DNA of 64,000 nucleotides from Druceiella hillmani (Eukaryota > Arthropoda > Insecta > Lepidoptera > Hepialidae): contig JAYKKI010000066.1 of NCBI GenBank assembly GCA_039881145.1, positions 9,249,501-9,313,500 of the forward strand, in the 5' to 3' direction. The stretch's first letter is position 1. Every line of letters starts with the position of its first letter. This document shows positions 15,868 to 49,964 of the stretch, in pieces. Position numbers and translations under genes: made by a program. The notes under the pieces were generated by a model. That model made no database searches, was not told where the DNA came from, and worked only from the letters and a program-made list of their open reading frames with translations.

Positions 15868-15879
15868 GGTTTATGTATT

Positions 15880-16137
15880 GAATGTATTTGGCGTTAATTT
15901 TGTAGAAATTCATTATTCACAATTAAATGAAACTACGTGATGTAGTATTATTTCTATTTTATTTAATTTCTTTACCACGACCTAGGTTTCGTTGTATTAC
16001 TACATTATCAGGTGGGATATTAGCAAAGATCTTTGCTAATATCCCACCTGAAGATGTAATACAACGAAACCTAGGTCGTGGTAAAGAAATTAAAGAAAGT
16101 AGAAATAATACTACATCACGTAGTTTCATTTAATTGT
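15880..16137 (-). mobile_element. Hammerhead foldback element, copy A
   Basis: A near-palindrome of about 258 bp centred on AGATCT at 16028-16033. The arms carry TTTACCACGACCTAGG and its complement. The asymmetric tail (TTTGGCGTTAATTTTGTAG) is on the left, so the element is in minus orientation relative to copy D. A 12-bp direct repeat, GGTTTATGTATT, flanks it at 15868-15879 and 16138-16149, a clean target-site duplication. Each arm contains a decayed hammerhead motif. The minus-strand motif (15975-16015) has CUGAUAA in place of CUGAAGA. The plus-strand motif (16044-16081) lacks 3 nt of stem II but keeps CUGAAGA, GAAA and GGUC. Confidence 0.85.
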
Positions 16138-16149
16138 GGTTTATGTATT

Positions 16150-17215
16150 AATTACAGTTTTACATCAAGTTCTTTTTAGAGTTAAACTTTTATTACTTTT
16201 TCTCTCGTTTATTAAAAAGTATTCAATGTTCGGCACCCCTATTCAGAAGGTGTGTAAAAATTATAAGTACATTTAATCGAATTAAAAAAAGTAAAAAGTT
16301 CTCAATTCAACCAGCATATTTTTTCTTAAAAGTATGTAAACTTAAAACGCAGACATGTTGACTGATTTTCACGATTATTTCTTGTTTGAAAGGAAATAAT
16401 TTCATAACATAAGTTTCAAATAACACGGACCTGATATTTGATTACAGAGATATCCTAACGAACTTTTCAATGGATAAATGTATAAAATCCCCTTTGAGCT
16501 ATTAGACATTGAGTTTGAAATAATTTCACGTGTCTTTATAAGTATATTAGTCACAATTGTTGGCCGGGGTTTGATGATGGAACTAGAAAGGGTGGCGGAA
16601 CTTCTCATATCGAAAGGTACATTCCCAGAGTTTGGCTGATTTTAAGCGTCCTAATGAGTTCTTTAGTCACAAATATTGACCAGGGGCTGATAATAGAGCA
16701 GAAATTGGTACAGAAACCAGAAACGGGAATACTATAATAGTGAAGGGGTAGATTCTCATGTTGGCGCTCCCTTAACTTTATTAACAACTCTTTTGGTCAT
16801 AAATAATATCACTAAATTAGCAACAGGAATTTCTCAGTGGTAAGGAGTTTCGGCTTATATGACTTGTTTTAACCGGTAATTTAGTCACTATCATTATTGC
16901 TGTATTTTTTTATTTGTTGCTAAGTTGAATGTGGCTTTTAGGTGTCAATAAGTGGGTGTATATATGTGGTCAGAAATAATAATGTACTGTAAAAATCTCA
17001 ACTTAACACTATTATTTTTAAAACTTTAAACGTTTCAGCGTGTTTCTGATTCAGTGATTATTGGAAGTCGGTTCAATTTATTTATTAAAAAGTTTTCCCA
17101 AAATCCTTTAAATCTAATCTTTTTTTACTTCGAAAATAATAAAAGACATTACATATCGTATTTTTCCAAAATATTCGGAAAACACGTTGTAAATCTGAAA
17201 AAAAATTATTTCGTA
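16150..17215. other. AT-rich DNA, nothing recognised
   Basis: Two minus-strand frames at 16402-16608 and 16605-16787 have loosely similar plus-strand contexts (TAGTCACAAATATTGACCAG and GTCACAATTGTTGGCCGG), which hints at a degenerate internal duplication. No domain was recognised. Confidence 0.4.
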
Positions 17216-17289
17216 ATATTGTATAACATCAGAAATAAGTGATGACTGATTGATATTGTATAACATCAGAAATAAGTGATGAGTTTATA
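17216..17289. repeat. 37-bp perfect tandem duplication
   Basis: A 30-bp segment at 17216-17245 (ATATTGTATAACATCAGAAA and onward) recurs exactly at 17253-17282. Confidence 0.9.
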
Positions 17290-17752
17290 TTACATTATAA
17301 AATATTTGTCTCAGTGACAACGAAAACGAAAGGAACGTCGAAAGAAATTATTAAAATAAACTAACAAATTTTTCAATTTGAATTCACAACTCAACTAACT
17401 TATTTTGTATCAAATTTTTCTCGTATTACCCTTATTGTCCAACGATGTAATATGTTATTTAAATTTGGACGAATATTAAAAATGACTGAGATATTATTTG
17501 CCAAAATATCATTTCATTGGTTTTGCGTTTATCTCGAAAAAAGAAATATACTAATGTTAATCTAAAGAGTTTTATTACAACAGATAATTGGTGCAGAGAG
17601 GTCGGCGAGAATTTTTTTTTGTTAAATATGGTAAAAGTCAGAAAGAAATTGTATGCTGATATCGTAATATTTCAATTTTATTTTCAACTTTATTTTGCAA
17701 CTTTTCTGGTCATTTATATGCTGGTAAACTAATACAAAAACTCGAATTTTGT
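17290..17752. other. AT-rich DNA, nothing recognised
   Basis: No feature supported. Confidence 0.5.
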
Positions 17753-17754
17753 AT

Positions 17755-17834
<80 letters not shown>
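17753..17834. repeat. (TA)n microsatellite
   Basis: About 80 bp of TA with one TACATA interruption. Confidence 0.97.
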
Positions 17835-17838
<4 letters not shown>

Positions 17839-18359
17839 ATAGTTGTTTAGACATATCTAATTAAAAATAGTGTAAATATATACTTTCACTTCATTTATTT
17901 AAGTTTTCTTTGATGACTTAAGTATGTTGTTCACTTATTACATTGTAATGAAATGTTGCTTGGAAACCTTGATTTTGAATTTGCTCCTTTGTTTCGTGTA
18001 TTAATTTAATTTCTAATGACTGACTTGAGAATATTACTTTTTTCCTTAGAATATATCTCATGCGTTATTTAAAAAGTTAAATTTCTAGATTCTCTTAACA
18101 ATCTGTTTACCTTATCATAGCAATGTACTACAACATAAATAATTTCCTCTTAGTGCAAGGATCATGGTTACTACAGATTTAGTATCTTGTTTGTACAAGG
18201 TTCTAGGGCTATCCTTTGAAAATTGCACGAAAGACTGAGCACAATCTACATTCTCTGAAATCTTCTGTGTTCAAGTTGCGAAAATTTCTATTTCATTCAT
18301 GTTGTAAATTCACTGTTCCGATTTCGTCCAAGTTTATATACGATTCCATCCAAAATGAA
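17835..18359. other. AT-rich DNA, nothing recognised
   Basis: No feature supported. Confidence 0.5.
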
Positions 18360-18399
18360 AATAAGAAACTTTGACTTATCAAAATCAAAGTTTCTTATT
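18360..18399. repeat. 15-bp perfect hairpin
   Basis: AATAAGAAACTTTGA (18360-18374) and its exact complement (18385-18399) surround a 10-nt loop. Confidence 0.85.
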
Positions 18400-21300
18400 T
18401 ACATTTAAAGCAGAATTTAATTAAAACTTATTAAATAATAAGTAATCATAAGTAAACCCATCTCCAAATCAGAAAAAAAAGTAATTAATTTACAGGTAAG
18501 TAATTAATTTTCTGCTCAGTTCAAACTTACCGTTCACTTTGAACATTTAGGAAAACCACCAAAAAGCACTCTAAGGACAAACTTCATTAATTAAATAAAC
18601 TCGTGCGATAAATTTTTAAAACATGGAAATTAAAGGTTTAATGTTTATAAATTCAATTTAAAGTTTTGCGTCAACATCTACTTTGTATTAAAATTAACTT
18701 TATTGAAGTTTGATTATTTGTTATTTTGGGGCAAAATATTATAATTTTTTGATAGAGTATCAATTTAATATTTATTTTATTAATTAATATTTATTTTATT
18801 AATTTATGTATAAATGCCTAAAATTTCGCGAACTCAATTTGCCTTTTTAAGATATGAATAAAATATAGGATGTTATACAGAAATCAATCTAGGTTATTAA
18901 CTAAACAAACGAAAACTTTATCCAGATTAGCATGAAATATAGAATACACTTAGAAAGGTTTTAAGAGAATCCCTAGAAACAAATACTGGTTGTAATACAT
19001 AACTTTTTAGTTTAGGTAAATTGAACTTCTTGAAAATAAATATTCATATAAGGAACTGGTAATAAGATCCAGGAATAAAGGCATTAAAATTTGGTTCAAA
19101 ACCTTTATTTTTTTCCAATGTTGCCCCATAATTCTTTTTTATCATCTTATCTAGTAAAAATTATTAGTTAAGAAAAATGGACAAACTAATCTTGTAATCG
19201 ACTAGATTTATGCAGTTAAACATTTTGAGTTGTTATACTAAACAGAATAATTATACTAAACAGAATTGTTTATCCATTTGCTTAAAAAATTAGATAAGCA
19301 TTAGTAATTGTTTTTTTAAAAATTAGAGATTTTTTTGAGTTTCATGGCTGAAAAGAGAAAACGGGACCTTTCTATGTTCACTTACGGATTACAAGTAAAT
19401 GATGATATGTTAACAAGTACGATAATATTTGAGGAAGTAAAATATTTTGAAAGACAAATACATTAAACAAATATCGAATAAAACTACAATGTGTCGGTAT
19501 AGTAAGTAGACATTCATAACTTTGTTGATGAAACGATATTGCGCATTTCATTTGTGCAAGAAATGTTGTAGAACTTACGCCCGTAAACTAAGGGAGGGTG
19601 ATCATCATTCGTATGTGGATTTAAGTATTTTTCAAAGTTAAATAATAAACATTCACTCAGTAAAATATATATTTAGTATTGCTTAATACACTGACGTTTT
19701 TAAAAGTTTCTTTCAATGCTCAGTATTATTGTATATTTAATTGTTTACGATGGATATTATTTTCCAGTTAGAAAGACAATACGTATTTACCGCTTGAGAT
19801 TGTAAACGTTTTATATATTAATTTAGGATCGGGATCCTGAATTAACTTAATATCCTGAATTTATTAAATAATTAGAATTATTCTTAATCCTGAATTAATA
19901 TGTTATCCTAAATTAATTTTCGTCCATACTTAACGTTGTATTATGAATGAAATTAAATCAGAAATTGATATTATCCTGAATTAATTAATTGACTTAATTT
20001 TAATTAAACTATCTCACTGTGTCTTGTAAGAATGCGACAAATAGTTGTAAATCTATATTAAATATTATTCATAACCACTTAGCAACAGTGTTTTCATATT
20101 ATTAAGTGAAGTCTCTTTAACAAACCAACGTAAAGAAAATCATTTTTTGGTAAGAGAACTTTCAACTTATTGAAGTAAAAGAATTTTGAGTGGCAGAATT
20201 GTAGAACTAAATTATTACTGGAAAGATTTCTTATTTTTCAATTCACGAAAACAGACTTATTTACGTTCTTTTTAAAGTCGATTTTCCACAAAATTGGTTA
20301 ACTAAGTCTAGTTAAATTTATTAAACAGATGTTAACAATAGCAGGTTAGATTGTTTTATTTTTGTTCAGACCTTATGAAAGACATTAATCTACAGAGATT
20401 TTTTTTGATGTCGACGATTGAATAAATCAACACTAACACGTTTTTTATTTTTTGAGCTTAAAATATTGAGGGAATGAAAAGGAAAACATAAAATATTTTT
20501 AACATGAAATAAATCAGATATATCGTTTGGTTGTTTTTTAAGAAATAATAGTAATATTTGAGTTTTTTGTACTTTTGATAAAAATAAAATGGAAATATCT
20601 TTCCTTTTAGTATAACAACATGTATTTGTAAATTTAGGAAACCCTCAAAATTTAATAAACCGTTTTAAAATATTAGATTGAAAACAAAAAGCTTCATACT
20701 CTAAGTAATGTTCGTGCGTTAATTGAGTTTCCTCGTAAAAAGTTTCTTATGAAACAGGGGTGTTTATTTATTTCGCAATAGGTAAAAGTTTTTGTGAATT
20801 AAATAAAGTCTCTAAAGATTGTAGACAAAACAAAATTTTATAAAATAGAAATTAGATATTCTGAATTACTTTATACATTTACTACATTAAAATATGTGTG
20901 TACCGAATTAAATAGTTTCACTAAAATCGTGTTCGTAGAATGTGAACAAAATAAACGTTACTCTGTATTTCATGTCGTAATACTAGTCTGTGACATAAGT
21001 TAGGTAAATAAACATGTACAGACATTCATTTCAAGTAGTTGAGTTAAATAAATTGAAGAAACGTAATTAAAACATTATAAAATATGTTTCCATTTAAACG
21101 ACTTCATTTTTACTTTTTTCACTCGATCAAAAGGCATCAATTTGGTTGAAAATGAAAGTATACAAATTTAATTTTACAAATAAATTTGTTTGCAAATGGA
21201 TAAATATTCCTAAGTCTAATATATTATATTCGCTGTGATTTTTTTTCTAAAACTATTTAATGAACAATATATATTGTTTTCATACCGAAAGAAATTTGAT

Positions 21301-22171
21301 AATGAATGCTAGAAAAAATTTGTTGTCTCGTTATTCATTTTAATAGTTTAAAAATAAAATACATATTCCATCAATATGAGCGAAATTCGCAGATTTAATA
21401 ACTATTTGCCTGTTTCTTTAAACCGACAAACGTGAGATAAAACTCTATTATTCACCTGCTTCGCAACCTATCCGCTCTTCTCTTGTAAACTTTTAACATT
21501 GCATCATGTTTTATTGAAAAACGTATGTAGTAAAAAAAATTGTAAGATGGTAAACCGACATACGTGAGATAAAACTCTATTAGGTTTAATATAAAGAAAA
21601 CTTTATATTTGGATTAAATATTTAGAGTAGTTTCAAGTTCAACTGAAGTTAATATAAGGATAAGTGGAACAAACATCTCTGAACAGTGGCGACTTTTAGT
21701 AAATGACATTAAAATATGACACGGTGTTAATGATTCATAACGTGTATAAATGGTGTAGGGATTTTCTGATGAAATCAAATCAGGGTGAAAGATTAATACT
21801 AGAAAATATTACGATATTACTAAAATCAAATATTCAATGGTAAAAAACTTTTTCTGAAAATCTCATGATAAGCCCATGAAGTTTTGAAGAGCTCTAACGC
21901 TGATTGCTAGACTTTTGGTAATCAAAAGAAGACTAAAAGTATTTCGTCTGATAAAAAATTATTTAGTGCAGTTTTTCTTTATTCAAAATTATGCTATAAA
22001 ATATACGTCTTTTTCTCAGAAATAATTTCAAAAATTATATAAAAAAATCATGTGTGCAATTGACACGTGGTAGAAGTGAAACCTTCAAAAATTTGAAATT
22101 TTAATTTTTAAAGTAAATATCAATTTTTAATTTTAATAAAAACTAAAATAATTAGAAAAGTGTTATTAAAT
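18400..22171. other. AT-rich intergenic DNA with minor direct repeats
   Basis: No gene was recognised. Small repeats: a duplicated TTAATATTTATTTTATTAA at about 18765-18800; a duplicated TTATACTAAACAGAAT at about 19235-19266; scattered ATCCTGAATTAA-like words at 19830-19985; and a direct repeat of about 33 bp (CGTGAGATAAAACTCTATTA) at 21422 and 21553. Confidence 0.5.
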
Positions 22172-22981
22172 CCCCTTCCCCTTCCCGTTCCCCTTCCCCT
22201 TCCCCTTCCCCTTCCCCTTCCCCTTCCCCTTCCCCTTCCCCTTCCCCTTCCCCTTCCCCTTCCCCTTCCCCTTCCCCTTCCCCTTCCCCTTCCCCTTCCC
22301 CTTCCCCTTCCCCTTCCCCTTCCCCTTCCCCTTCCCCTTCCCCTTCCCCTTCCCCTTCCCCTTCCCCTTCCCCTTCCCCTTCCCCTTCCCCTTCCCCTTC
22401 CCCTTCCCCTTCCCCTTCCCCTTCCCCTTCCCCTTCCCCTTCCCCTTCCCCTTCCCCTTCCCCTTCCCCTTCCCCTTCCCCTTCCCCTTCCCCTTCCCCT
22501 TCCCCTTCCCCTTCCCCTTCCCCTTCCCCTTCCCCTTCCCCTTCCCCTTCCCCTTCCCCTTCCCCTTCCCCTTCCCCTTCCCCTTCCCCTTCCCCTTCCC
22601 CTTCCCCTTCCCCTTCCCCTTCCCCTTCCCCTTCCCCTTCCCCTTCCCCTTCCCCTTCCCCTTCCCCTTCCCCTTCCCCTTCCCCTTCCCCTTCCCCTTC
22701 CCCTTCCCCTTCCCCTTCCCCTTCCCCTTCCCCTTCCCCTTCCCCTTCCCCTTCCCCTTCCCCTTCCCCTTCCCCTTCCCCTTCCCCTTCCCCTTCCCCT
22801 TCCCCTTCCCCTTCCCCTTCCCCTTCCCCTTCCCCTTCCCCTTCCCCTTCCCCTTCCCCTTCCCCTTCCCCTTCCCCTTCCCCTTCCCCTTCCCCTTCCC
22901 CTTCCCCTTCCCCTTCCCCTTCCCCTTCCCCTTCCCCTTCCCCTTCCCCTTCCCCTTCCCCTTCCCCTTCCCCTTCCCCTT
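22172..22981. repeat. (CCCCTT)135 hexanucleotide array
   Basis: This is 810 bp, or 135 units of CCCCTT (AAGGGG on the minus strand), with only one visible substitution, C to G at 22187. All six reading frames are open: Pro-Leu, Pro-Phe and Pro-Ser forward; Lys-Gly, Arg-Gly and Gly-Glu reverse. This gives long artificial frames of 277 codons (+) and 317 codons (-). The G-rich strand has tetra-G runs every 6 nt, so it can form G-quadruplexes. The homopurine/homopyrimidine asymmetry also favours triplex DNA. Exact length may depend on the assembly. Confidence 0.98.
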
Positions 22982-24413: not shown

Positions 24414-27127
24414 CTGTTATATATGTTATATTTAATTTTATTTGATTGAAAATAAGGGAATAATTGTATATTATTGTACATGTTAGTAAAAGAAAATGAA
24501 AGGTGGTGTAAAGACGAAATATGGGGCTCTATTTATAACCTAATAATTTATGTAAAATAATTACTTACCTTAAGAGCTTTAATGAGAAAGAAAGAAAATT
24601 ATCTCTCTTTAAAAAAATTGCTTTCAACTTTCTATATTGTCATTATTTAACCTCAGTTACGTTGACTTCTAAAGAATAATAAACTTATATAAATATTTCT
24701 TACAAAAACATATCTAATTATTCTTCCGCTGATACGGATATAAAATGTCAATCCATTTTTATAAATTATCTGATACTATTTTCGACAAAATTTCGGTATT
24801 ATACCTGAATTTATTTTTGATGGAAACTACTTTTTGTTTAGATTATATTTTATAATTAATTGAATGGATCATCATTTCATGAATTATATTGAAATTTTAC
24901 AAATTGAATTGAAATATACAGGTATATTTTATAAAACATTTGTGACGGAATATTAAATCGCGAGTAATTTTTCGTATTAATAATTTATATACATATTGGA
25001 ATATTTGAACCGAATGAATACTACGGTTGTTCATCCCTTTTAAAACTAAAATTCACATCTATAATTTTTCTTAATGGATATTATATTATTTTGATATAGT
25101 TGTGGTTATAAGCACCCATCCTGCTTCTAAACATTTTTCCCAATCATGGCATTCTATGCAGGATTATCATTGCAACTTAGCTTTAGTATCCGAGGGATTT
25201 TTTTAATAAGCTTCTTAGTTTTACAAACAGATCGATCCTGCACTACATAGTTATTTTCTTTAGTCAAAAAATATATACTCTAAACGTGGTCAATAAATTT
25301 CAATTTAAATAATAGACATAACGACTAGATAATGATCATTGCTTAAAAATCTTAAATAAAATATCTGAAGAATTTATATATATTTATACAATTACTACTT
25401 AAATAGGTTATATTTACAAAATGAGAAATAAGTTAAATTTAGCTGAAGCGAGATTTGGCTTAAAATAATAAATTATTTAGAAATTAGGAATTCTTCGTTA
25501 ATTGAAGTGATGTAGATGAATATTAAATACATCTCCATCATTGTTTTCTATGAATTACTTGAGCATGGTGGTTTTTTATTCATTTGTTGCAAAACTCTCA
25601 TATAAAAACAATTATTCGCCAAATTAAATATTATCTCTCGTTATGATGTAGCTGGAAATTTCTAAATTAATTATTGTTTTGTTGCGAATAACGTAAATTT
25701 ACCGCATTAAATATACACACACCTGTCTTAGTAACTATTCTCTTGAAATATCAAATAACTTAAATGCTCCCAGGCAACAACAAACGTTATTATTTCGAAT
25801 GATTTAGTAAAATGTAAGTATTTTGACAATTGTACTTGAGACTTGTAGTAATTTAAATTATTGACCTTTTCGAATACAAATTATAATTAATTTAAATCTG
25901 TAATCTTTTTTTAATTATAATTCTGACTTTGCTTAAACTACAATGATATTCTTAATGCCCTTAATTAATTACAAATGTTCCTACTTCAAATGTTTTAGTA
26001 TATTTGTGGTTTCGTTTCGACTCATTGTGAATTAAATTATTGACATTTTTAAATGTAAATTATAGTTAACCTCAATAATCTCTGTTTCATAGCTTACAGC
26101 ATAAGCCTGTGTGGGCATAATGGTTCTTAGCTCTCTCCTTTTTAATCGACTAAGTACTTAGAGTGAAATAAATATTTTCAACAAAATCCGTAGTGAGTAT
26201 CAAATTAGTGTATTATTTATTAAACTAACTAATAATAATTGCCTTAATTACATTGTGCCACTGTATACAACAGGATGAAGGGTATTCTTATAAGTGTGTC
26301 AAACATTTAAAGACAACAAAATAGTTTTGTAAATATATTATAAATAACTAGGTTGCATTAAATAATAAGAACTAAGGTAAAAATAAAAAGAAATACATTT
26401 ATTTTCTGTTTTTCTAAATTTGTTAGTCTAGACTTAGAAAAAATTAACCCCCTTAAATATTGTTCGAGATATCTGCATGGAAATTTAGGTTTGGATGAGA
26501 ATGTTGTATTGTACTTTAAGCCATCTTTTGTAGTCTGTGTACATAAAAAGAATAAAAAAAAAAGATCTGAAACTTTTGAAACGTCAGAATTCAGGCCTTT
26601 AAAAAGACGTAAACGAAGTAAGAATTTTTTTCACTAACCTATACATCGGATAGGATGTAAAATGGAAAAAAAATTTAAGGATTTTATAACGGTTTCTTTT
26701 TCAAAATATGTAAGCCAGTTCTAAAAATGTTGTTGAAAATGTTTACAAAAATTGGTCTATTCTGATCAATTTTCGAAACTACCGTAGTAAAAATATTAAA
26801 AAAAACAATGTTATTACAATTTTACCCAAAGTGTAGCGATGATTTAGAGTCTTAAAGAATTTGTGAAATTCATTGTATGTTTACCTCAGTGAAAGAAATA
26901 CTAGGCAATACATGTACATGGCTAAAAACAATACTGACATTTGCACATAATAAATTAAATGTGCTATGTATACTTAAATATTTACATGGTCATTAGACCG
27001 ACTGCGAATTCTACTCGTATTTAACGGATTCTATTCTAACTGGTAGCTATTTTTATTATATTTTTTTTTCATGGCGTTTAAAATATACATACAATTTATA
27101 AAATTAATGTTATTCAGCGTTGAATAT
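24414..27127. other. AT-rich intergenic DNA, nothing recognised
   Basis: No transposon or gene motif seen. Confidence 0.5.
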
Positions 27128-27337
27128 TGAATATATTTGGCGTCAGTTTTGTAGAAATTTATTATTCACAATTAAATGAAACTACCTGATATAGTATTAT
27201 TTCTACTTTCTTTAAGTTCTTTACCACGACCTAGCTTTGGTTGTGTTACAGCATCTACAGGTGGGCTACTAGCAAAGATCTTTACTTAACTTAAAGAAAG
27301 TAGAAATAATACTACATCAGGTAGTTTCATTTAATTG
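27128..27337 (-). mobile_element. Hammerhead foldback element, copy B (old, deleted)
   Basis: The tail lies on the left (TGAATATATTTGGCGTCAG), followed by a full left arm. The right arm is shortened to TAAAGAAAGTAGAAATAATA plus the outer terminus, so the right hammerhead is deleted. The left minus-strand motif (about 27223-27264) has CUGUAGA, and the catalytic G12 position is changed (CCAAAG). It is predicted inactive. No clear target-site duplication was found. Confidence 0.8.
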
Positions 27338-27756
27338 CATTATTCATTGTTTTAATTTACATAGTTCTTTCCAATTAAACCTGTTACCTTTAACATTTTG
27401 TAATTTTGTTTCATTTAGCTTAAAAATTTGAACTTTAATGTTATTTAATAACTGAAAAGTCTGATAGAATTTTTCTAATCTTGGCAGATATCTAATATTG
27501 TGAGAAATATGTTTTAATCTTGGCAGGTATGTTAGCATTGTGGGAACTTTTGTTTGGTACACATAGTGGTTTTGTTAGTTTATCAAATGATATTTTACTG
27601 ATATTCCCATAAACTATCAGCATGATTATCGTCTCATTATTCATTAATCTTAGGAACTTCGTAAATTAAGTTTGTTTTGTTTTAAATATTATATAAATAC
27701 TCAACAACATACTTCATTTTAACTTAAAACATGCTTTGGTCATTACAGTAATAAAG

Positions 27757-27804
27757 TGAATAAGTATTTTGTATTATCCTTACAAAATACAAAATACTTA
27801 TTCA
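27757..27804. repeat. 19-bp perfect hairpin
   Basis: TGAATAAGTATTTTGTATT (27757-27775) and its exact complement (27786-27804) surround a 10-nt loop. Confidence 0.85.
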
Positions 27805-28038
27805 TTTTCTCGTTTGTTAATTTTTTTTCCAAATATGTATTCAATACTATTTTCCAAAGCATATTATCCCTCATAAAAATTTCATATATTTATGTAATTT
27901 TCTTAATTCCGCGTTGAGTTTACTTACATTTCTTTTGATTATTAATTATCAATCATTGACACAGCGTAGTATTTTTTAGTTGACAGTATTTGTTGACAGT
28001 AGTTGCTTGGTTATATTAATATCTGGTAATCTTTCATA

Positions 28039-28590
28039 ACTAAATGAAACTACGTGATGTAGTATTATTTCTACTTTCTTTAAGTTCTTTACCACGACCT
28101 AGGTTTCGTTGTATTACAACATCTTCAGGTGGGCTATTAGCAAAGATTAACTCTTAGGAACATCCAACAGCATATATAGTTTCAAACACAATAGCGGAAG
28201 CCGGGGTTGTGTGGGTTTTCCTACTGCTTATGTTAGTGAGTTTATTGTAGGAGAGCGGTGCAGGTTTTATTATATTTCCGAGAGTTATACTATATACCAA
28301 TATTTTAGTGAGGGTAATAACTTCAATTGTTGTTATTATATGAGGTTGTACAATGCAAATGTTCCGGTGTATGTAATAAAATTAAATGGAATTTATTCTC
28401 GGTAATATGTTTATATAAAAGCAAGGGCTACGTAAGTGTCTCTTTGCTAATAGCCCACCTAAAGATGTCGTAATACAACAAAATTTAGGTCGTGTTAAAG
28501 AACTTAAAGAAGTAGAAATAATACTACGTCACGTATTTTAATTTAATTGTGAATAATTAATTTCTACAAAATTAACGCCAAATATATTCA
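28039..28590 (+). mobile_element. Hammerhead foldback element, copy C, with internal core
   Basis: The left arm (28039-28148) and right arm plus tail (28441-28590) are the same inverted arms as in the other copies. Here about 292 bp of unique sequence (28149-28440) sits exactly where the other copies have their AGATCT centre. The left arm keeps a complete minus-strand hammerhead core. The right arm is decayed (CUAAAGA, and AAAA in place of GAAA). The core holds a 64-codon frame (28211-28405, +) with no recognisable domain. This copy may represent the longer parent form of which the others are internal deletions. Confidence 0.75.
28092..28132 (-). ncRNA. Hammerhead ribozyme, type I-like (copy C left arm)
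   Basis: Read on the minus strand: CCAC (stem I), CUGAAGA core, one unpaired U, stem II GUUGU-AAU-ACAAC, GAA, stem III ACC-UA-GGU, C17, then GUGG completing stem I. All core residues expected of a hammerhead are present (C3, U4, G5, A6, G8, A9, G12, A13, A14). N7 is A, which the family tolerates. Predicted self-cleavage is between 28096 and 28095. The extra U before stem II is the main departure. Short stem III is typical of Penelope-type hammerheads, which may work as dimers. Confidence 0.7.
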
Positions 28591-28764
28591 AAATCTATTT
28601 TAAATAAATTTAACCAATAAATTAAATCTCAATGTTATTTGAAAATTAATTCGAGGTTTTTTTTAAAAACTATTTTTAAAAATGAAGACTCGCCCTACCT
28701 TGTGAACTATTAATGCTGCAAAAAACAGTTTCTGTTAAACTTTTGAGAATTATTTATCTACTTA

Positions 28765-30893: not shown

Positions 30894-30905
30894 AATTGCT
30901 AAGTT

Positions 30906-31159
30906 TACAATTAAATGAAACTACGTGATGTAGTTTTATTTCTACTTTCTTTAATTTCATTACCACAACCTAGGTATCGTTGTATTACAACATCTTCAGG
31001 CAAAGATCTTTGCTAATATCCCACCTGAAGATGTTGTAACACAACGAAACCTAGGTCGTGGTAAAGAAATTAAAGAAAGTATAAATAATACTACATCGCG
31101 TAGTTTCATTTAATTGTAAATAATGAATTTCTACAAAATTAACGCCAAATATATTCAAT
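30906..31159 (+). mobile_element. Hammerhead foldback element, copy D (reference copy)
   Basis: A 254-bp element flanked by a 12-bp target-site duplication, AATTGCTAAGTT, at 30894-30905 and 31160-31171. It begins TACAATTAAATGAAAC, has two inverted arms meeting near AAAGATCTTT, and ends in the asymmetric tail TTAACGCCAAATATATTCAA. The right-arm hammerhead is complete. The left-arm motif is damaged (GAUA for GAAA, and a changed first stem I base). A 10-bp block is also missing from the left arm near the centre, where CAGG runs straight into CAAAG. Confidence 0.9.
31021..31061 (+). ncRNA. Hammerhead ribozyme, type I-like (copy D right arm)
   Basis: Stem I is CCAC (31021-31024) with GUGG (31058-31061). 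The core CUGAAGA is 31025-31031, followed by an unpaired U at 31032. Stem II is GUUGU (31033-31037) with ACAAC (31041-31045) and loop AAC. GAA is 31046-31048. Stem III is ACC (31049-31051), loop UA, GGU (31054-31056). C17 is 31057, so cleavage is predicted between 31057 and 31058. Every Watson-Crick pair listed is intact. The extra U and the very short stem III are the reasons for caution. Confidence 0.75.
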
Positions 31160-31171
31160 AATTGCTAAGTT

Positions 31172-32659: not shown

Positions 32660-33290
32660 TCTGTATATTAATACGTGAAGAAAAAATGTTGTACCTCCTT
32701 TTTAAGCATATTGTACGCACAAAAGAGTGTGAAATTTGGCATAGTTAAAGTTTAAATGGAAAAGGAATGCACAAAGCTAAAATGTAAATATGACATATGT
32801 TACAAATACATTAAATGATGTATATATTAATACGTGAAAGAAAAATGTTGTACCTCCTTTTTAAGCATATTGTACGCACAAAGGAGTGTGAGATTTGCCA
32901 TAGTTAAAGTTTATAGGGAGAAAGATTGCGCAAAGCTAAAATTTAAATAAGACATATGTTACAAATACGTATATTAATACGTGAAGGAAAAATTTTGTAT
33001 CTCTTTTTAAGCATATTGTATGCACCAAGGAATGTATGATTTGGCGTAGGTTTATATGAAAAAGGAGTATGCAAAGCTAAAATTTAAATAAGACATATGT
33101 TACAAATACATTAAATTATGTATATATCAATACGTGAAAGAAAAATTTTGTATCTCCTTTTTAAGCATATTGCACGCACAAAGGAGTGTGAGATTTGGCG
33201 TAGAGAAAGTTTTTCTGGAAAAAGAATGCAGAAAGCTAACATTTATATATAATATGTGTTACAAATACATGAAATTATATATTACAAATA
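32660..33290. repeat. Four-unit minisatellite, ~150-bp period
   Basis: Four diverged tandem copies, anchored by AATACGTGA at 32670, 32829, 32976 and 33129 (spacings 159, 147 and 153). Other shared words are TTTTTAAGCATATTG, GACATATGTTACAAATAC and GCAAAGCTAAAAT. The 68-codon frame at 33134-33340 falls mainly in the last unit and is not considered a gene. Confidence 0.93.
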
Positions 33291-33961: not shown

Positions 33962-34070
33962 AACTTTCTTTAATTTATTTACCACGACCTAGGTTTCGTT
34001 GAATATATTTGGCGTGAATTTTGTAGAAATTCATTATTCATTATGAATAATGAATTTCTACAAAATTAAC
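33962..34070. mobile_element. Hammerhead foldback element, copy E (rearranged fragment)
   Basis: It begins with an arm piece (TTTCTTTAATTTATTTACCA, ACCTAGGTTTCG) that contains only the stem III/cleavage half of the ribozyme. It then switches directly to the tail (GAATATATTTGGCGTGAATT) and the tail's own inverted copy (GAATAATGAATTTCTACAAA). The result is a palindrome of the tail, centred near 34041, a junction not seen in the other copies. This suggests template switching during replication or integration. Confidence 0.75.
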
Positions 34071-36122: not shown

Positions 36123-36126
<4 letters not shown>

Positions 36127-36174
<48 letters not shown>

Positions 36175-36187
36175 CATATATATATAT

Positions 36188-36237
<50 letters not shown>
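36127..36237. repeat. (TA)n microsatellite
   Basis: About 110 bp of TA with TTTATACATA and TACATATACA interruptions. Three overlapping plus-strand frames crossing it are artefacts. Confidence 0.97.
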
Positions 36238-39970: not shown

Positions 39971-40262
39971 TTTAAATATATTTAGCGTTCATTTTGTTGA
40001 AATTCAATACCATTTAATTTTTATTCAAAACCAAATGAAGCTACATGATGTAGTATTACTTCTACTTTATTTAAATTCTTGACAAAAACCTAGGTTTCGT
40101 TGCGTGACAACATCTTCAGGTGGGCAATTTGTAAAGATCAGAAAATCTTTACAAATTGCCCACCTGAAGATGTTGTCATACAATGAAACCTAGGTCATGG
40201 TTAAGAATTTGAATAATGTAGAAATATATCACCTAATTTCCTTTAGTTGTGAACAAAAATTA
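39971..40262 (-). mobile_element. Hammerhead foldback element, copy F (divergent)
   Basis: An older copy: tail on the left (AAATATATTTAGCGTTCATT), arms meeting at 40136-40146, right terminus decayed. The right-arm motif (40160-40200, +) keeps CUGAAGA, GUUGU-CAU-ACAAU, GAAA and GGUC. It has an A in place of the first stem I G and a G-U closing pair in stem II. The left-arm motif keeps the catalytic core but has U17 and a broken stem I. Both arms share the variant GGGCAATTTGTAAAGAT at the centre, so the arms have co-evolved or were copied from each other. Confidence 0.8.
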
Positions 40263-41520: not shown

Positions 41521-44040
41521 TGCTTGTTAACAGTGCAATGTCTTAGTCACTACAGAATCTATGATAGCGTGCTGCGCCTTATATATCTTCCATCTTGGAA
41601 GCTTCTAGAACGTCTTTATATTTTCAAGATAATTTTCTAAAAAACGCTCATTACTTTTTAGCAAATCCAATATTTTTATTTAACATCAAAAGTTTTATTG
41701 TATTTCACCTATTGACGACAAGTATATATTGTCTTATAATTGTCTATGGTTTCCGTATTATACTTTCTGTTTTTCGTGCGTGGCTTATTGTTTTGCATCT
41801 AAAAATTACAACAAATTATACACAAAATATTTTTTAAGCTAGAATATATATTACCTACATAAACATTTTTTTTAAATCGATTCGGCGGTTTGAGTACGGA
41901 AAAAGACAAACAAACAAATAAGGGGAGAACGTTTCATTTTTATTATTTTATCACGGTAGGTATCATAGGAACTAACGGCATTCTGTGACGTTGACTTGCA
42001 AATTACATTTTTTTAATATTCTAATCACGGCCAATTTTTAAGACAGAATCTGCATTTTTATGAAAAGAAAATTTCCAACAACTTCTCCACATGTTCATTG
42101 TTTATTACACATGTTTCATCTCTTCAAATATCTTCTCCTTCCCTCATCTCTCTTCTAATTCAATATATATTTCACTCTTCCATTCTCACGCCCTTAACTA
42201 CCTCTCATTATGTCTCTTTTATCTTTTGCTTGCCCCTTAATCCACTGTCCTTAACCACTTATCATTGAATTTAAGCAATAAATGGACAAATTATTTTACT
42301 GATAAATATTCGGTCACCTCTTTGGGATTAAAAGACAGCTTGATTTTTATCACACTAACTGTGATAACTTTTTTTATTCTCTTAGGGATAAACTTGAAGA
42401 ACATCCAATTTAACTCTTAGTGACACAATCAAAAATAAATTTGTTATTTCTAGCTTAAATCGTTTGGGCTCTGTTTTTGTAAATCAATTAGATTTAGAAG
42501 TTTTGACTATTGGTAAAAGGCAAATTTAATTATTTCCTTAATACATTCTTAAGTCACGTTTCAGTCTAATAGACGTCTTATATTATTTTCTAATAAATAA
42601 CAATTTACTCACCACTTTAGGAGTTGAAAATCTGAAAAATTGAGGACTCACTTTATAAAAGAAACCAACTGTCCGAATTTAATGTATTTAGCTTCAGTAA
42701 TTTTAATGAATTAATCGTTACATGCCCCTTTTTATATATAGATTATATATTCTCTCACCTCAGTGCAGCAGAGAGTAAAAAATTATTTACTAAATACAAC
42801 ATTTATGGGTGGTCATTAATTTGTTGATGCGTATTTTTTCCTACATAGGAGTGACTCCTATCTATATATAAAAAAATTGAAGTGTTTTTATGTTATTCAA
42901 TTTTACATAATTATTTCGAGGTGATTTATTTATATTCCTCAAAGAAGAATATAATAGTTTTTTAGGTCGTGTTTAACAATGGATCCATTACCGCTTACTT
43001 TTGTCCAACTTCCATTTTTGTGCTTAAAATTGCGATTTCATCCGGTTTAAGGTTTAGTAAATACAACACCATTTAGGGCAAACAAATTGCTTACATTATT
43101 CAAACGGCCCATTTCTCGAAAACTAACCTATTGCTTGTGTTATTTAAATTACTCAGATCTCGAACAAAAAATCACAAACACGTTATATAGAAATAATAAT
43201 ATCGCATTTTCATATGATTGATAAACCAAATATATAGTTTATTGATTTTCAGTTCAGTGTTTCATTCCTCTACAATAAGAATAGAACCTTATTTGTCGGA
43301 ACACGTCAAAAAATTTATGAAACTTTTTTTTTCAGAACCGTTTCATGTGTATTTGAAGGTACTCTTTATATTAGAAGTGAAATATATTTATAATTATTAT
43401 AATAAATAACTCTGATACCTTCTTGCCTATAGGACGTAAAAAAGAAATGTAATTTAACGATGTTTAAAAAAAATATTTGCATGGAATCATTCACGCACTG
43501 AAATTGAAATTATTTTAAAAATGTAATCAGTCAAAGCAGTCTTTTATCATTACCTTTCTTATATCTCCCATTATAAGCGTTATTCCCCCATATTATCATT
43601 ATTCCCCTTGCAAGTATATTAAATCGCGTATATAAGTACTAGAAGCACACAATAGCCATTTATGCAAACTTAAATGCAATTGTTTGTGATATTTGTGATG
43701 GCATTAAATTGTTATTTCGGGAAATGCCGTGAAAGATCATATAAATGAAAATGGAAGAGGGTGAAATTGCGGAAAATATAAAAGTTCACAAAGGATAAAG
43801 ATCAATATAAATAATGTATCCGTATTCAAAGATATAATTTCTTGTAGGCAGATATAATTTCAAGATATAATAGTTTTCACCAATATTACTTATTATAAAA
43901 GAAAAACAGGTATACTTATTCAGAAAGCAGTGTTTTTTTTACTTAAATATATTCGATAATTTTTTTTTTCAATCTCCTTATTTATAAATTTTATTTTCCT
44001 AACAAAAATATAACACTATTTAGAGCTCTCCTAGATTCTA
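41521..44040. other. AT-rich DNA with one repeat-like patch
   Basis: 41870-41925 has the wording TCGATTCGGCGGTTTGAGTA...GACAAACAAACAAATA, typical of the 3' part of many arthropod interspersed repeats. The family was not identified. Nothing else was recognised. Confidence 0.4.
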
Positions 44041-44067
44041 TTGTTAGCATGCACTATTTCCCTGAAT

Positions 44068-44150
44068 CTGATTGGTTTGGCAGTTCGGTGATTGGATGCA
44101 GACCGAGCGACTGACGTCAAGGAAAACGATTAAGCATTCCAAACTATGCG
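44068..44150. promoter_or_regulatory. Possible promoter-like motif cluster
   Basis: Two inverted CCAAT boxes (ATTGG at 44071 and 44091) lie 20 bp apart. A perfect CRE palindrome TGACGTCA (44112-44119) and a TATGCGCATA palindrome near 44143 lie within the next 50 bp, in a locally less AT-rich patch. Such clusters occur in promoters. Matches of this size can arise by chance in 64 kb, and no transcription unit was identified beside it. Confidence 0.2.
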
Positions 44151-45001
44151 CATACTGTAAACTACAAGTTCACAGTGTATGAAATAATGATAAATTTACT
44201 AATGCTCTGTAGTGTTAGTTCCACTCACATTTTAATTAAATCTTAACACCATTTGTAATAACTTAATAAAACTAATTCACTTTCTGTATGTATTCCAAAC
44301 TTTCATATAATGTCCAAAAATAATAAACTGCTCTAGGTGGTGTTAAAAGTAACATCACAGTATTAGAGGAATACCTAAAATAACCAATATATGACGCCAA
44401 AATAGGGTCATCCCTGGAATTTAAAGTTATATTTACTAAAATAAAAGCTTGGTTGTATTCACCGTGGTGTTTCAATTTGAGCGCAAGACATACACCACAA
44501 GTACTCGGGTTCAATTTGGACTGGAAGAAGCCCAACCGTTCGAGGCTCTGGCAACCATTTTTCCATATAACATCTTCTTCGTCTCATGTGGACATGACAA
44601 CAACAACAAAAGTTTAGTTTCGAAAAGTAATATTAGTTAGTAATAAATATCAATTCGGAAATAAAGTTTCTGTCCACTGCGTCGACCGCTCATCAGATTT
44701 TATTGAAAGAACTGTTAAATTCACAAATCATTGGATTTGGAAATAGGTCCAAATTCTACACATTCATTTAAACGTAGCATAAATTACATTTAAACTTAGA
44801 CCTAATATTTTCACGGTTCCGTAACGAAACAAAAAGTTTCATAGTTTCTGCATTTTCGTGTGTCAAAAGTTTTGGACCTAGGTCCGTAAAATTTTGGAAG
44901 AATACATTTTATATAAATATTGCAATCAACTTTTATCAAGGCACCCCCACTTATAAAGAAGTGGAGATAGAAAAATTTGTCTAACCTCTCCCATTATGTC
45001 G
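44151..45001. other. Unclassified DNA, less AT-rich at 44450-44600
   Basis: Overlapping open frames occur on both strands (44272-44535 minus and 44449-44640 plus). Neither gave a recognisable domain. Confidence 0.4.
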
Positions 45002-45481
45002 AATATCTTTAGAATGTTATTTTAAAACTAAATTTAAATTCCATTTAACATTTTTGGCAATGTTTACGAAAAATTAAACTTCAAAACCGTTAACGATGTG
45101 TCTCTCAGTTTCGTTTTAATAAAAAACGTACCAACTCTTTTTAAAGTTCAGCCATTACTTAGATTAATTAAAAATAAATTCTTAAATGACATTATCGTTC
45201 GTTCGGTATTGTCAAAATGAAAATGTTTCTTACTATTATACGTGAAATAGTAAGAAACATTTTCATTTTGACAATACCGAACGAACGATAATGTCATTTA
45301 AGAATTTATTTTTAATTAATCTAAGTAATGGCTGAACTTTAAAAAAATTTGGTACGTTTTTTATTAAAACGGAACTGGGAGACACATCGTTAACCGTTTT
45401 GAAGTTTAATTTTTTGTAAACAGTGCCAAAAATGTTAAATGGAATTTAAACTCAGTTTTAAAATAACATTCTAAAGATATC
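45002..45481. mobile_element. Long palindrome / foldback MITE
   Basis: The left arm (45002-45237) and right arm (45246-45481) are inverted copies of about 236 bp, with only a few mismatches and an 8-nt loop (ATACGTGA). There is no coding content. Transcripts would form a very stable hairpin. The right end directly abuts a TA microsatellite. It is unrelated in sequence to the hammerhead elements. A target-site duplication was not evident, so a foldback transposon and an inverted duplication remain alternatives. Confidence 0.85.
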
Positions 45482-45482
45482 C

Positions 45483-45491
45483 ATATATATA

Positions 45492-45554
<63 letters not shown>
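45483..45554. repeat. (TA)n microsatellite
   Basis: About 70 bp of TA immediately next to the palindrome's right end. Confidence 0.97.
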
Positions 45555-45690
45555 CTTCCTTGTTTACCTTGTTGGCTTCATGGATTAGTATGTCATAACA
45601 GTGTATGCAGTGTTCAAAGAGACGCTTTTCATCTTGCTGGGTAAAGATTCTCCCAAAAATGGATTTTACATCCTATTATAGAAAATAATC
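45555..45690 (-). mobile_element. Possible pogo-like transposase N-terminal fragment
   Basis: One minus-strand frame reads IFGRIFTQQDEKRLFEHCI and about 15 further open residues. This resembles the 'LGR..vFt.eqE.eLv.hc' segment after the first helix-turn-helix in pogo/Tigger-type proteins. No second domain was found, so this is tentative. Confidence 0.3.
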
Positions 45691-48549
45691 TCACTTTTTA
45701 TAGAAAAATGAACGAGTTGTCATTTGTCTGATTGACTATGTAAATAATAATTTTTCTTACTTTTGCTTTCTTTACTTTAAAATATTCGTTACAAAATTAT
45801 TATGCTAAAGTAAAATTTGATAATTATAACTCGAAGAAGATCACTAGAAAATTTGTTTATAAATTAAAGGTAAAAATGCTGGAAAAATGAGTTCAAAAAT
45901 AATTGTTTTTAAAGAGTAAAATTATAATTATTAATTTTATATAAAATTCCAAAAATTATTCACAATATAGAATTGCCGAATCTTTATAGAAATTCATGTG
46001 AAGAATAATATATTATTTTCACATATCTCTAATGTTTTAAGCAGCGTCGGCGAAGACATCTCTCCGATGAGTACTTTTTCCAATTTCATCGACACTCATA
46101 GTTCCAGGCCAGGTCATTTTCACAAAATATTTATAAATTATAAACTTAGAACTTCCACGTAAATAAAAAAAAATCAGTTCAATATTTACTAAAAAAATAG
46201 CTTACGTATAAATATAGACACGCGGCGGAGGTCTTTGTGTATTATATATTTTGATGTACAAACTTGTTTCATAAAGCATGATTTTTAAATTGAAATTTTA
46301 GACAATGGTTAATCAAACGCAAGGAAGCTTTTGAGATTGTTAAATATTAGAAAGAAACTAGCTAGTGAAATAGTTGAATAATTAGGCGAATAATAATACC
46401 AGCAAAAAATGTTAATAAGAAACTGTTCGATTTTTACAAAAAAATGTTAGCCTTTATATCATTTCCCAATAGGTTACATTGGGTACGAGTACAACATGTT
46501 TTAACAATTACTCAAATTATTACGAGTACCACACAAACTATCCATTACGATATTATTAAGAATATTATACAATGTAAATATTAATAACATTACTCCAAAT
46601 ATTAAAAAATCACCTATTACTACAATTGTTTAGTTTTAAATGTTAGATTAATGTATTAAATTATAAAGCCACTCCGGAGACTCTTTCTCGTAAAAGTTAA
46701 CGGCATATGTTATTTGTTAAGTCAAAGTAATATTTCATTGTTTTTAATATAAACACCACCAACGGCGTCGCACACCCCGAGCCATTCATTTCTCGACGTA
46801 TGAACACGTACAGTTACTTCAGTTTCCTAAGTAAGATTATTAATCATTATTAGATTTTAAAGAAAACAAATTGGTTAATTTATATAGTAATATGGAAAAT
46901 ATTCAATAAAATCGAATCCAAGATAAAAACCCTAAATATCGATATAAAAAAGAGAATAACGTTTACAGATACATTTAGAAACAAAAAAAATACAATATAT
47001 AATATAAATCGACGTAAAATGGGCATTAGAAACAGTGACGAACGTAACCATTTTCCTTATTATTAATGTAAAAACCAACTTGATAAAAATGTCCATTTTA
47101 ATTTTTGGGCAATAAAATTCTAGCAAAAAAAATTCCAGAAAATATTAATCTCTAAATTTTTTTTAAAGATAAATCTTTTAAAATTATAAAAAGATATATC
47201 TTTTAAAATTATATTAGGTTTTAATGACCGCTTGCAAAATTCTAAATTTGAAAGTGACATGTAACACCCCTCCTCTCATAAGGTGTGAACAATCTGAAAA
47301 AAATCACTGACATTATTTGAATAGAGCCGCCTTATCAAATTACAGCGGTTAGCTTGCATTACAAATTTTGAGAGCTAGTAGAATTCTTTATTTTGTAAAT
47401 ATTCCCACACGTACATTGCAAGAATTTTTATGCAAAAATGTTTAAATTGGACGTAGATACACGTTGCGTTAATTACCAGCATTGCATTTTAGTAACATGT
47501 TGATTTTGAATAAGTAAATTAAAAATACGGTAAAACACTTCAGGTAATGTAATGTCTTAAAATCCCATTTCTCAAATTTGCCTAAGTAGTACTTATGTAA
47601 ATTTTAAAAAGAAAATCTTGAAAACTCTGTCTCAAACTTACGTATGTAAATTTCCCCAAGTCAAGGAAACGACGTTAAATTAATAATGAAAACGTTTTAG
47701 TTTAAAAGTAAAATTTTGAGACAAAAAATTTTAAAATTAATGGACCTTGAGTCCAAATGGGGTAAAAAATAAAACTCAGTGTAAGTGAATTGAGGAAATA
47801 TACTGAATTCTGTAGAAAAATTAAGATATTTTATTTTATCAAAATATCTTAATACAAAATTATATGGATTAATTTTATCGTCTATATTTTTCAAACAACA
47901 AGAAAGTGAATAATAGAAATGAAAATATAAGACCTTTCTTCTTCAGCTTTAGTCGCCTTGGACTACAACATGTTTTCCCTACTTATTACGTAATGAAACA
48001 AAATGTATTAACATATGTATGTGTATGGTAAATGGGGTCTAATATGTAATTAAAATTAAAATAATTGATTAACGTTAAATGATTTTAATTGACATTAAAT
48101 TCGACATTCTAAAATTAGTATACATAGATTAGAAGTTAATACAATGAATGACTAGTTCAAAATTGTAAAAACCAAACCCATATAATTTTTAACTTTCAAG
48201 GAGGAAAATTTCATCTCATTAAATAACTCTTGCTTTATCCAGGATTTTTATTAAGCCATTTTAAATATGTAATAATTATGATGGGCGGTTTAAGTTTTTG
48301 TAAAAGTAAACTTCAGGTTTTTTTTACAAAATATTCTTTTGAAATATATGAAATTTCCTAATTTAAAAAGATCGCATATTCAGTAAACTTAAGGGTTATC
48401 TTTGTTTCCCATGTTTTAGAATTGTCTTGTGACACAGTAATAGATTATTTTCTTTTCACGCGCCTAGAAATTTATTTGATGTTTCAAGATTTGTTTTCTT
48501 TACAATTTTTCTAAATATAGTAGTTCATATAGTCTTTTGATTCAACTCA
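45691..48549. other. AT-rich intergenic DNA, nothing recognised
   Basis: Only a 12-bp hairpin at 47821-47852 (TTAAGATATTTT and its complement) was noticed. Confidence 0.5.
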
Positions 48550-49500
48550 CTTAGGTCACACAATGACTATTTCAACCATATTGTTCTTATTAATGGCTGC
48601 ATAACCTATTATGAACGCGGCTTCGATAGTAGGTAGGGACACAATCTGCTCTCGCTAGCTGGACCAGGTAGCGGAGATACCATTCTTGAGGAATGTATAA
48701 CCGGTTACAGAAGAATTAGTTTCAATGTCGTTAGCGTAACTTGAGTTGCTATGGCCCATCACGTTAGCGGTGTTTACATTTTGCAAGTAACGCTATGTAA
48801 GTCCTTCGATTTTTTTAGATATATCAGTATCTTAATTTCCAGTGAGATTTGTTGTAACAATGCAAACATCTACTCGCTTGGCTTACCAAAAACCTGATAT
48901 CTGATTTATTCACAATCCCAATAGAGATTACCGACTCCACTGCTTCTCTCTATGAATAGTTTTCCAAAGGTGAATAACTTCCTTCATACAGTCTTACATG
49001 GGGATCGGCAGGAATGCATTTGGATTGGCGTCGCACTTATTAAATTTGCTGAGCAGTCACTCGATGTATTTGGTTTGTTGAATGAACATTAAGCTACTTA
49101 GTTTTTCTATTTGTATATCAATAAAATTTGTGACTGGGTACATTTTTAAATTTAAATCAGCTTTAAGATCTTTAATTATCTTGTTCAAAGTATGTTTACT
49201 TTCGAATAAAGTAATCCCACATAAACGTTCTTGTCAGTTTTATTCTTAGTAAAGGCAATCTTGTTGAAATTTAAGTTTCAACATTTGCGTATAAATTTCA
49301 ATCAGTAGAGCGGATTATTTAATTTACATACCGTATTTTGTTCGCGTTCCAGTCCTCCGGGCCGAGTCGTGTACATATTTTCTCTCAAGTTACCATACAA
49401 AAATGTTGTAATTATATCAAATTACATCATTTCAAAATTTTTCTTAGCGGCTGTGGAAAGTAATAGGAATATGAAGTCATATCTAACCGTGGGAGTTAAC
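48550..49500 (-). mobile_element. Ty1/copia pol relic: reverse transcriptase and RNase H
   Basis: Read on the minus strand from about 49500: TVRYDFIFLLLSTAAKK and QFDITTFLYGNL-type blocks (with one stop) match the copia RT segment 'VVRYESIR.LLALAA...QFDVKTAFLYG.L'. A decayed 'YVCKL...LYGLK..PR.W' block follows. Then come FIDIQIE and a decayed 'Q.KYIE.lL.KFN..d.nP' block, and finally, at about 48760-48560, an RNase H-like region with YANDIET, VTGYTFLKNG and ISATWSS. Several in-frame stops and frameshifts make it a dead retrotransposon. Upstream sequence to about 50.3 kb may belong to the same element. LTRs were not located. Confidence 0.75.
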
Positions 49501-49717
49501 GTTTCATGGAAACAATGAATTTGGTGCGTACTTATACTTTTTCAAAGAGTCGTGACTTGCCCCGAGGACTTGTTGGTTATCTTTAATATGAAATACCATT
49601 TACACAATATCAGTTTGGCATTTTGAGGTTTTCTTCTAAAGGTTTAGGTTTTAATCAAGTTTGTGAGATTTTAGTCCTTTGTTTATTGATATTGCTCAAT
49701 TTACAAAATTAATTGAC

Positions 49718-49950
49718 AATTAAATGAAACTACGTGATGTAGTATTATTTCTACTTTCTTTAATTTATTTACCACGACCTAGGTTTCGTTGTATTACAAC
49801 ATCTTCAGGTGGGATATTAGCAAAGATAATATGTAATACAAATATGTAATACAACGAAACCTAGGTCGTGGTAAAGAAATTAAAGAAAGTAGAAATAATA
49901 CTACATCACCTAGAATAATAAATTTCTACAAAATTAACGCCAAATATATT
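49718..49950 (+). mobile_element. Hammerhead foldback element, copy G
   Basis: Flanked by a 14-bp direct repeat, CAAAATTAATTGAC, at 49704-49717 and 49951-49964 (the last one or two bases may belong to the element). It starts AATTAAATGAAACTACGTGA and ends with the tail TTAACGCCAAATATATT, in the same orientation as copy D. The left-arm hammerhead is complete on the minus strand. The right arm has lost the CUGAAGA half through a central deletion but keeps GAAACCTAGGTCGTGG. It sits just upstream of the copia RT relic, possibly inside that element. Confidence 0.9.
49772..49812 (-). ncRNA. Hammerhead ribozyme, type I-like (copy G left arm)
   Basis: Identical in sequence to the copy C motif: CCAC, CUGAAGA, U, GUUGU-AAU-ACAAC, GAA, ACC-UA-GGU, C17, GUGG on the minus strand. 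Cleavage is predicted between 49776 and 49775. Identity with the motif 21.7 kb away, when flanking parts have diverged, suggests recent spread or conservation of this segment. Confidence 0.72.
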
Positions 49951-49964
49951 CAAAATTAATTGAC

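Follow-up and report, generated by a model that had tools for sequence, protein, structure and literature searches.

Foldback repeats with a minimal hammerhead motif in Druceiella hillmani and their probable origin from Penelope-like elements

How does a short repeat without an open reading frame (ORF) come to carry a hammerhead ribozyme motif in two arms that face each other? This question is raised by a stretch of the genome of the moth Druceiella hillmani (Lepidoptera, Hepialidae; assembly GCA_039881145.1, contig JAYKKI010000066.1, positions 9,249,501 to 9,313,500 of the forward strand). It contains a dispersed family of foldbacks, of which seven copies (c1 to c7) are located within 34 kb. 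The window is the whole 64-kb stretch, and all family copies were called within it. We consider it likely that these foldbacks are ORF-less insertions made by the enzyme of a Penelope-like element (PLE), with a hammerhead inherited from the 5′ region of such an element. Membership in the PLEs rests on anatomy, because no PLE protein was found in the window.

The foldback family and the anatomy of its arms

A profile was built from six arms and used to search the window. The search recovered 12 arms in six foldbacks (c1, c2, c3, c4, c6 and c7; Table 1), six of these arms being the ones from which the profile had been built, together with three pieces of c5. The E value was 1.2e-22 or lower for 11 of the 12 foldback arms and 1.1e-12 for the short arm of c2, which is reduced to a few inner bases and positions 27288-27338; the c5 pieces matched at 4.4e-9, 4.1e-7 and 0.011. 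Nine additional matches with E values of at least 1.4 were disregarded. The original prediction had listed seven related copies with inverted arms. Family sequence is present at all seven places and a foldback at six of them; the copy at 33962 (c5) is a rearranged fragment, which lacks the 5′ half of the hammerhead motif and in which CAA (by eye) links an inverted tail pair to the remaining 3′ half. The arms of all six foldbacks are oriented head to head, like an inverted pair of pseudo-long terminal repeats (pLTRs). Five of the six have almost no interior, and none contains an ORF. The 15 frames of at least 100 amino acids in the window all lie outside the family copies, and no ORF for a reverse transcriptase (RT) or a GIY-YIG endonuclease was found within the element.

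Read from the centre outwards, the consensus arm begins with a leader of about 18 nt, followed by CCAC-CUGAAGA-U-GUUGU-AAU-ACAAC-GAAACCUAGGUC-GUGG and then by about 56 nt up to ...TTTAATTGT. Beyond this point a 39-nt consensus tail, ending in ...AAATATATTC, is found on one arm only in each of the six foldbacks. The sense strand of each foldback was assigned from this tailed arm; the tailed end is on the right in c3, c4 and c7 and on the left in c1, c2 and c6. The long arm of c7 has lost its inner end, which carries the 5′ half of the motif. Judged by eye, the ends of the short arms scatter over about 10 nt (those of c3 and c6 extend further) and the ends of the long arms over about 5 nt. A stem-loop in the tail, predicted at −0.3 and −1.2 kcal/mol in two copies, is not better than in shuffled sequences. 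The arm has CUGAAG directly before an AUG, and the ATG overlaps position A9 of the hammerhead. Counted from this ATG, the consensus places predicted cleavage after C17 at +27 and the two arm ends at about +87 and about +126.

Three copies are flanked by target-site duplications (TSDs), and that of c7 is 12 bp long if its edge bases are shared. As controls, 3000 random window pairs per copy and thirty cross-pairings of flanks were scored; the cross-pairings reached at most 9.5, compared with 12, 12.5 and 14 for the true pairs. Uninterrupted palindromes span the junction of the arms in c1 (44 nt, perfect, 16008-16051), c4 (14 nt, 31000-31013) and c2 (10 nt, 27274-27283). The inner palindrome of c6 is broken by 6 nt, none is left in c7, and c3 has its interior at the junction.

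The two arms of a copy resemble each other in their minor variants. Such variants were common to both arms of a copy in 11 instances, compared with a mean of 3.3 over 720 pairings, 10 of which were as good; the arm divergence within a copy was 0.080, and only 4 of the 720 pairings were as low. For the variant count, misaligned stretches of the c7 long arm, the c4 short arm and the c2 short arm were masked, and c5 and the first centre columns had been excluded beforehand. The simplest cause of this concordance is that both arms of an insertion stem from one template type, so that each foldback was probably a new product. A rival source would be a dedicated parasite of PLEs, itself non-autonomous, that has its foldback RNA copied through the generations instead of having it remade from single-armed RNA; against this, the variants found here follow the copy and not the arm role, with 11 instances against one role-specific column. 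Such a parasite would fit the seven copies in 34 kb without an overlapping frame of at least 100 amino acids, the closed ATG frame of the consensus and the one column specific to long arms, and we regard it as a possible but rather unlikely source of the family.

Table 1. Position of the foldbacks, their hammerhead motifs and associated features in the window. Strand refers to the sense strand of the feature; random pairs are those of the TSD control.
Feature	Position	Strand	Remarks
c1 foldback	15880..16137	-	long tailed arm 15880-16029 on -; short arm 16030-16137 on +
c2 foldback	27124..27338	-	long arm 27124-27278 on -; short arm on +
c3 foldback	28036..28591	+	short arm 28036-28148 on - (motif intact); long arm 28437-28591 on +
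c4 foldback	30906..31159	+	short arm 30906-31006 on -; long arm 31007-31159 on +
c5 rearranged fragment	33963..34070	-	incomplete foldback; profile pieces, alignment
c6 foldback	39972..40250	-	most diverged; long arm on -, short arm on +
c7 foldback	49718..49950	+	short arm on - (motif intact); long arm on +
c3 short arm, intact minimal type-I hammerhead motif	28092..28132	-	grammar match
c4 long arm, intact minimal type-I hammerhead motif	31021..31061	+	grammar, Rfam; predicted cleavage after 31057
c7 short arm, intact minimal type-I hammerhead motif	49772..49812	-	grammar, Rfam
c4 tail, long arm only	31118..31156	+	profile, alignment, consensus
c1 TSD, 12 bp	15868..15879 (left), 16138..16149 (right)	.	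17 of 3000 random pairs score as high
c4 TSD, 12 bp	30894..30905 (left), 31160..31171 (right)	.	17 of 3000 random pairs score as high
c7 TSD, 14 bp	49704..49717 (left), 49951..49964 (right)	.	12 of 3000 random pairs score as high
c3 interior, 288 nt	28149..28436	+	unique in window
Open frame in c3 interior, 84 amino acids	28151-28402		

The hammerhead motif and its predicted folding

Three of the 12 arms (c3 short, c4 long and c7 short) have kept the segment CCAC-CTGAAGA-T-stem II-GAAACCTAGGTC-GTGG intact. The consensus has the complete type-I core (C3UGANGA, GAAA and U16.1 H17; 12 positions); of the 10 arms in which these positions are all present, 5 carry no core mutation. A permissive hammerhead grammar, composed after the motif had been seen and including a linker of 0-1 nt, gave 7 matches in 1.36 Gb of single-strand Markov sequence, corresponding to 0.0007 expected per 64 kb on both strands. 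The segment itself was described correctly at the outset for three arms, but the layout first assigned to it skipped the U after A9, and stem III is not one of 3 bp closed by UA. A stem III of 3 bp closed by a 2-nt loop is sterically excluded; the stem here consists of 2 bp and CUAG, or of 8 bp in a dimer.

A covariance-model search had been suggested as a check. Over the whole window Rfam reported no hammerhead, neither at the gathering score nor among the 43 matches with an E value of 10 or lower. When short stretches of the c4 long arm and the c7 short arm were scanned singly, RF00163 (gathering cut-off 34 bits) scored 16.5 and 16.6 bits (E values 0.068 and 0.058), and the type-I model aligned end to end in both; scanning both arms of c6 gave no hammerhead match. 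Compensatory changes in the stems were not found: none of 11 pairs is changed on both sides, in an alignment that holds 9 of the 12 arms and only 8 distinct rows.

The distribution of changes was compared between those assigned to the source and those private to single arms. One source-level change falls inside the hammerhead segment and 9 outside, against 24 and 25 arm-private changes (Fisher p 0.023 one-sided, 0.034 two-sided, with small numbers and a test designed after the data had been seen). Source-level changes thus avoid the segment, which hints at selection in the source.

The original prediction saw in the facing arms a working ribozyme on each strand, with hairpin folding as a possible switch. 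A functional element of this kind, with an active, hairpin-regulated hammerhead per strand, would yield circular or double-stranded RNA. The 12 core positions of the consensus would agree with it, as would the predicted minimum-energy dimer of the consensus 41-mer, a double hammerhead at −23.0 kcal/mol, which also fits the description of minimal PLE hammerheads as acting as dimers. However, this dimer requires two same-sense motifs, which a single foldback does not have, and the grammar is matched on a single strand in c3, c4 and c7 and on both strands in none of the seven copies. Folded alone, none of the three intact arms is predicted to adopt the hammerhead; for the 41-mer monomer an alternative fold is predicted at −7.2 kcal/mol versus −3.8 kcal/mol for the hammerhead. 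Among 500 shuffled 41-mers, 66 form dimers just as stable, and for 121 the energy gain on dimerisation is as large, and with 10-nt flanks added the double hammerhead stays the best fold in only one of three arms. For transcripts of the six foldbacks, whichever strand is copied, the predicted folding energy is −82 to −208 kcal/mol, compared with −3.8 kcal/mol for the monomer hammerhead, so the ribozyme would be buried in a foldback transcript. An active ribozyme on each strand is thus very unlikely and this part of the prediction is not supported; none of the results speaks for a switch or for circular RNA. Judged from the sequence, the ribozyme call as such is probably right in kind.

Comparison with known systems and proposed origin of the foldbacks

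Penelope elements of Adineta vaga have a pair of inverted pLTRs and palindromes; one pLTR may bear a tail (31 bp), and the TSDs are short (8-10 bp). Their 5′ pLTR is inverted and shorter, Pen2 and Pen3a have palindromes of 18 and 38 bp located at the 5′ end of the pLTR, and self-priming by one cDNA has been proposed for them (PMC3846280). Inverted pLTRs and 3′ extensions are also recorded in PMC8969392. The D. hillmani foldbacks are alike in their head-to-head pLTR-like arms, one of which is shorter, and in the tail; three of the six also have an uninterrupted junction palindrome and three have short TSDs. Non-coding sequences captured between solo pLTRs occur in Adineta (PMC3846280). The inverted layout, first taken to be undescribed, therefore has published counterparts. 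Unlike the foldbacks studied here, which are ORF-less in six of six cases, the Adineta foldback normally flanks an ORF for RT and endonuclease, and the word hammerhead does not occur in PMC3846280.

A second comparison is offered by PAc, a Poseidon PLE of Anolis carolinensis. It has hammerhead positions C3 and G8 before the start codon and is cleaved 26 bp beyond this codon; its reverse transcription begins at 111-118 nt of the ORF, and a tail of 30-40 bp lies between two start sites (PMC11167929). The PAc enzyme cuts and extends both strands, and the targets are AT-rich; insertion uses mainly uncleaved RNA as template, and the ribozyme depends on protein (PMC11167929). The family resembles PAc in the hammerhead over the start codon, the position of cleavage (26 bp there, +27 here), the length of the tail (30-40 compared with 39 nt) between two putative start sites and the AT-rich targets; the arm ends had been fixed by the profile before the PAc distances were known. 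PAc differs in being autonomous and arranged in direct tandem, and in its start site (111-118 versus about +126).

The motif itself resembles the minimal hammerheads of PLEs and Terminons, which are of type I, have almost no stem III and a palindromic loop that permits dimers; they are credited to Cervera and de la Pena 2014 and Lunse 2017 (PMC7761336, PMC6466107). Type, near-absent stem III and palindromic stem III loop are the same here, whereas the motifs are in tandem pairs there and inverted in D. hillmani. The non-LTR retrozymes of animals consist of direct tandem units with canonical hammerheads that have loop-loop contacts, and most invertebrate retrozyme hammerheads cleave efficiently as single motifs (PMC7229834). 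Like them, the foldbacks are small non-coding repeats with a type-I hammerhead motif. Their arms are inverted, however, their hammerhead is minimal, and the profile matches in the window include no direct tandem pair of whole arms, which makes a metazoan non-LTR retrozyme a highly improbable identity. Among the literature matches listed (titles and starts of abstracts) we found no ORF-less hammerhead foldback family. Exact-pattern scans found no relatives in viral contigs, nor the family motif in genome contigs. A looser PLE-type pattern hit 11 stretches of bacterial and archaeal records, 10 of them with a G+C content of at least 0.50, which were judged from their context to be chance matches.

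Long inverted arms, a short non-coding interior and TSDs are also traits of miniature inverted-repeat transposable elements (MITEs). An ordinary foldback DNA transposon with a chance likeness to a hammerhead has to be considered. The sub-threshold Rfam scores, the lack of covariation and the eight core changes in single arms would agree with it. The ends, however, are unequal in all six foldbacks, one being tailed, which does not match the symmetric ends of terminal inverted repeats. The common DNA transposon superfamilies are known for TSDs shorter than the 12-14 bp found here. In addition, the grammar leads one to expect only 0.0007 matches per window, and the distances within the arm are similar to those of PAc, a PLE that has been characterised. 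Taken with these points, a MITE is improbable.

An origin from a PLE can be outlined as follows. The template would be the 5′-terminal part of an RNA from a PLE (or of an RNA derived from one), consisting of the leader of about 18 nt and the minimal hammerhead overlapping the ATG, and would stretch to two reverse-transcription start sites about 87 and about 126 nt past the ATG. Transcription of this RNA would begin close to the inner end of the arm. The PLE enzyme would nick both target strands about 12 bp apart, and each nicked 3′ end would prime a cDNA; the cDNA begun at the distal start would include the tail, whereas the other would begin at the proximal start. Both cDNAs would reach the 5′ end of the RNA and be joined there via the palindromic AAAGATCTTT; instead of two-strand joining one cDNA might prime itself, which would also fit. 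The tail pair of c5 with its CAA and 3′ half of the motif looks like the result of template switching. The hammerhead may act in PLE transcripts, as a dimer or helped by protein; in foldback transcripts it would be buried, and it would decay after insertion. The uncleaved RNA template and the protein-dependent ribozyme of PAc fit insertions that keep the sequence upstream of the cut.

The interior of c3 bears on the start of this RNA. A TATA-like TATATAAAAG is located at 28412, some 27 nt before the arm, and from this one copy we infer that RNA synthesis could begin at the inner end of the arm; 9-mers of this type are present 19 times in the window, on both strands. The G+C content of the interior is 0.34, richer than the 29% of the window. 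Its 84-amino acid frame had a best E value of 0.46 in PDB and no relatives in the protein collection or in phage records. The interior may be captured sequence or the promoter region of a PLE.

Several observations weigh against a PLE origin or against the hammerhead on which it draws. The likeness to PAc and Adineta is one of anatomy, with no PLE DNA aligned, and a PLE protein was not seen in the window, where Pfam covered 6 of the 15 frames of at least 100 amino acids. The ATG frame of the consensus is closed at codon 3. The U between A9 and stem II is unpaired in all three intact arms, which leaves no 10.1-11.1 pair and departs from the strict core; in PMC3088659, hammerhead matches with a mispair at 10.1-11.1 were discarded. 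Rfam support stays below the cut-off in two arms and is lacking in either arm of c6. For the 12 core positions alone, with 8 arm-private changes and no source-level change, the depletion is not significant (p 0.20). TSDs are not above chance in c2, c3 and c6, where 595, 1583 and 190 of 3000 random pairs score as high, and an uninterrupted junction palindrome is missing in three of the six foldbacks. Lastly, a single column (52) is specific to the arm role, with C in three long arms and no short arm.

We nevertheless favour the PLE enzyme as the maker of the foldbacks. The arm motif and the PLE-like anatomy support what the original prediction had proposed as their nature, a short ORF-less PLE relative with a minimal type-I hammerhead. 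The layout of the repeat is unusual and mostly explained by PLE biology. A stronger version, in which a PLE enzyme regularly makes ORF-less foldbacks, always from one distal and one proximal start, and in which the hammerhead is kept by selection, is tentative and on balance doubtful.

Surroundings of the family and meaning of the foldbacks

The window has TA microsatellites, and many of its 15 longer frames are located within repeats. An RT fragment at 52177-52563 matches RVT_1 with an E value of 1.5e-6 (28.5 bits, cut-off 29.6); judging by eye from its motifs, we take it to be LINE-like rather than PLE-like. A separate near-perfect palindrome is located at 45003-45480 beside a TA microsatellite; its 235-nt arms are 96% complementary with 8 nt between them, and the foldback arm profile did not match there. 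The 6-mer TCCCCT is repeated 135 times at 22171-22981 (99% matches), open in six frames amid the AT-rich window. A 159-bp unit is present four times in tandem at 32664-33282 (80% matches), and tandem duplications are found at 61232-61545 (period 155 bp, 93%) and 62168-62603 (period 216 bp, 95%). Rfam matches resembling microRNAs on hairpins and TA repeats were not adopted, each being under its cut-off.

The family bears on the integration of PLEs, on the origin of their inverted ends and on the role of their hammerheads. If the stronger version is true, the foldbacks of D. hillmani would be the genomic footprint of two-ended, strand-specific reverse transcription by a PLE. From dense minimal insertions that keep only the 5′ end of the RNA, the two start sites and the hammerhead, genome data by themselves would show which strand is chosen, how the tail arises and whether the ribozyme is under selection.

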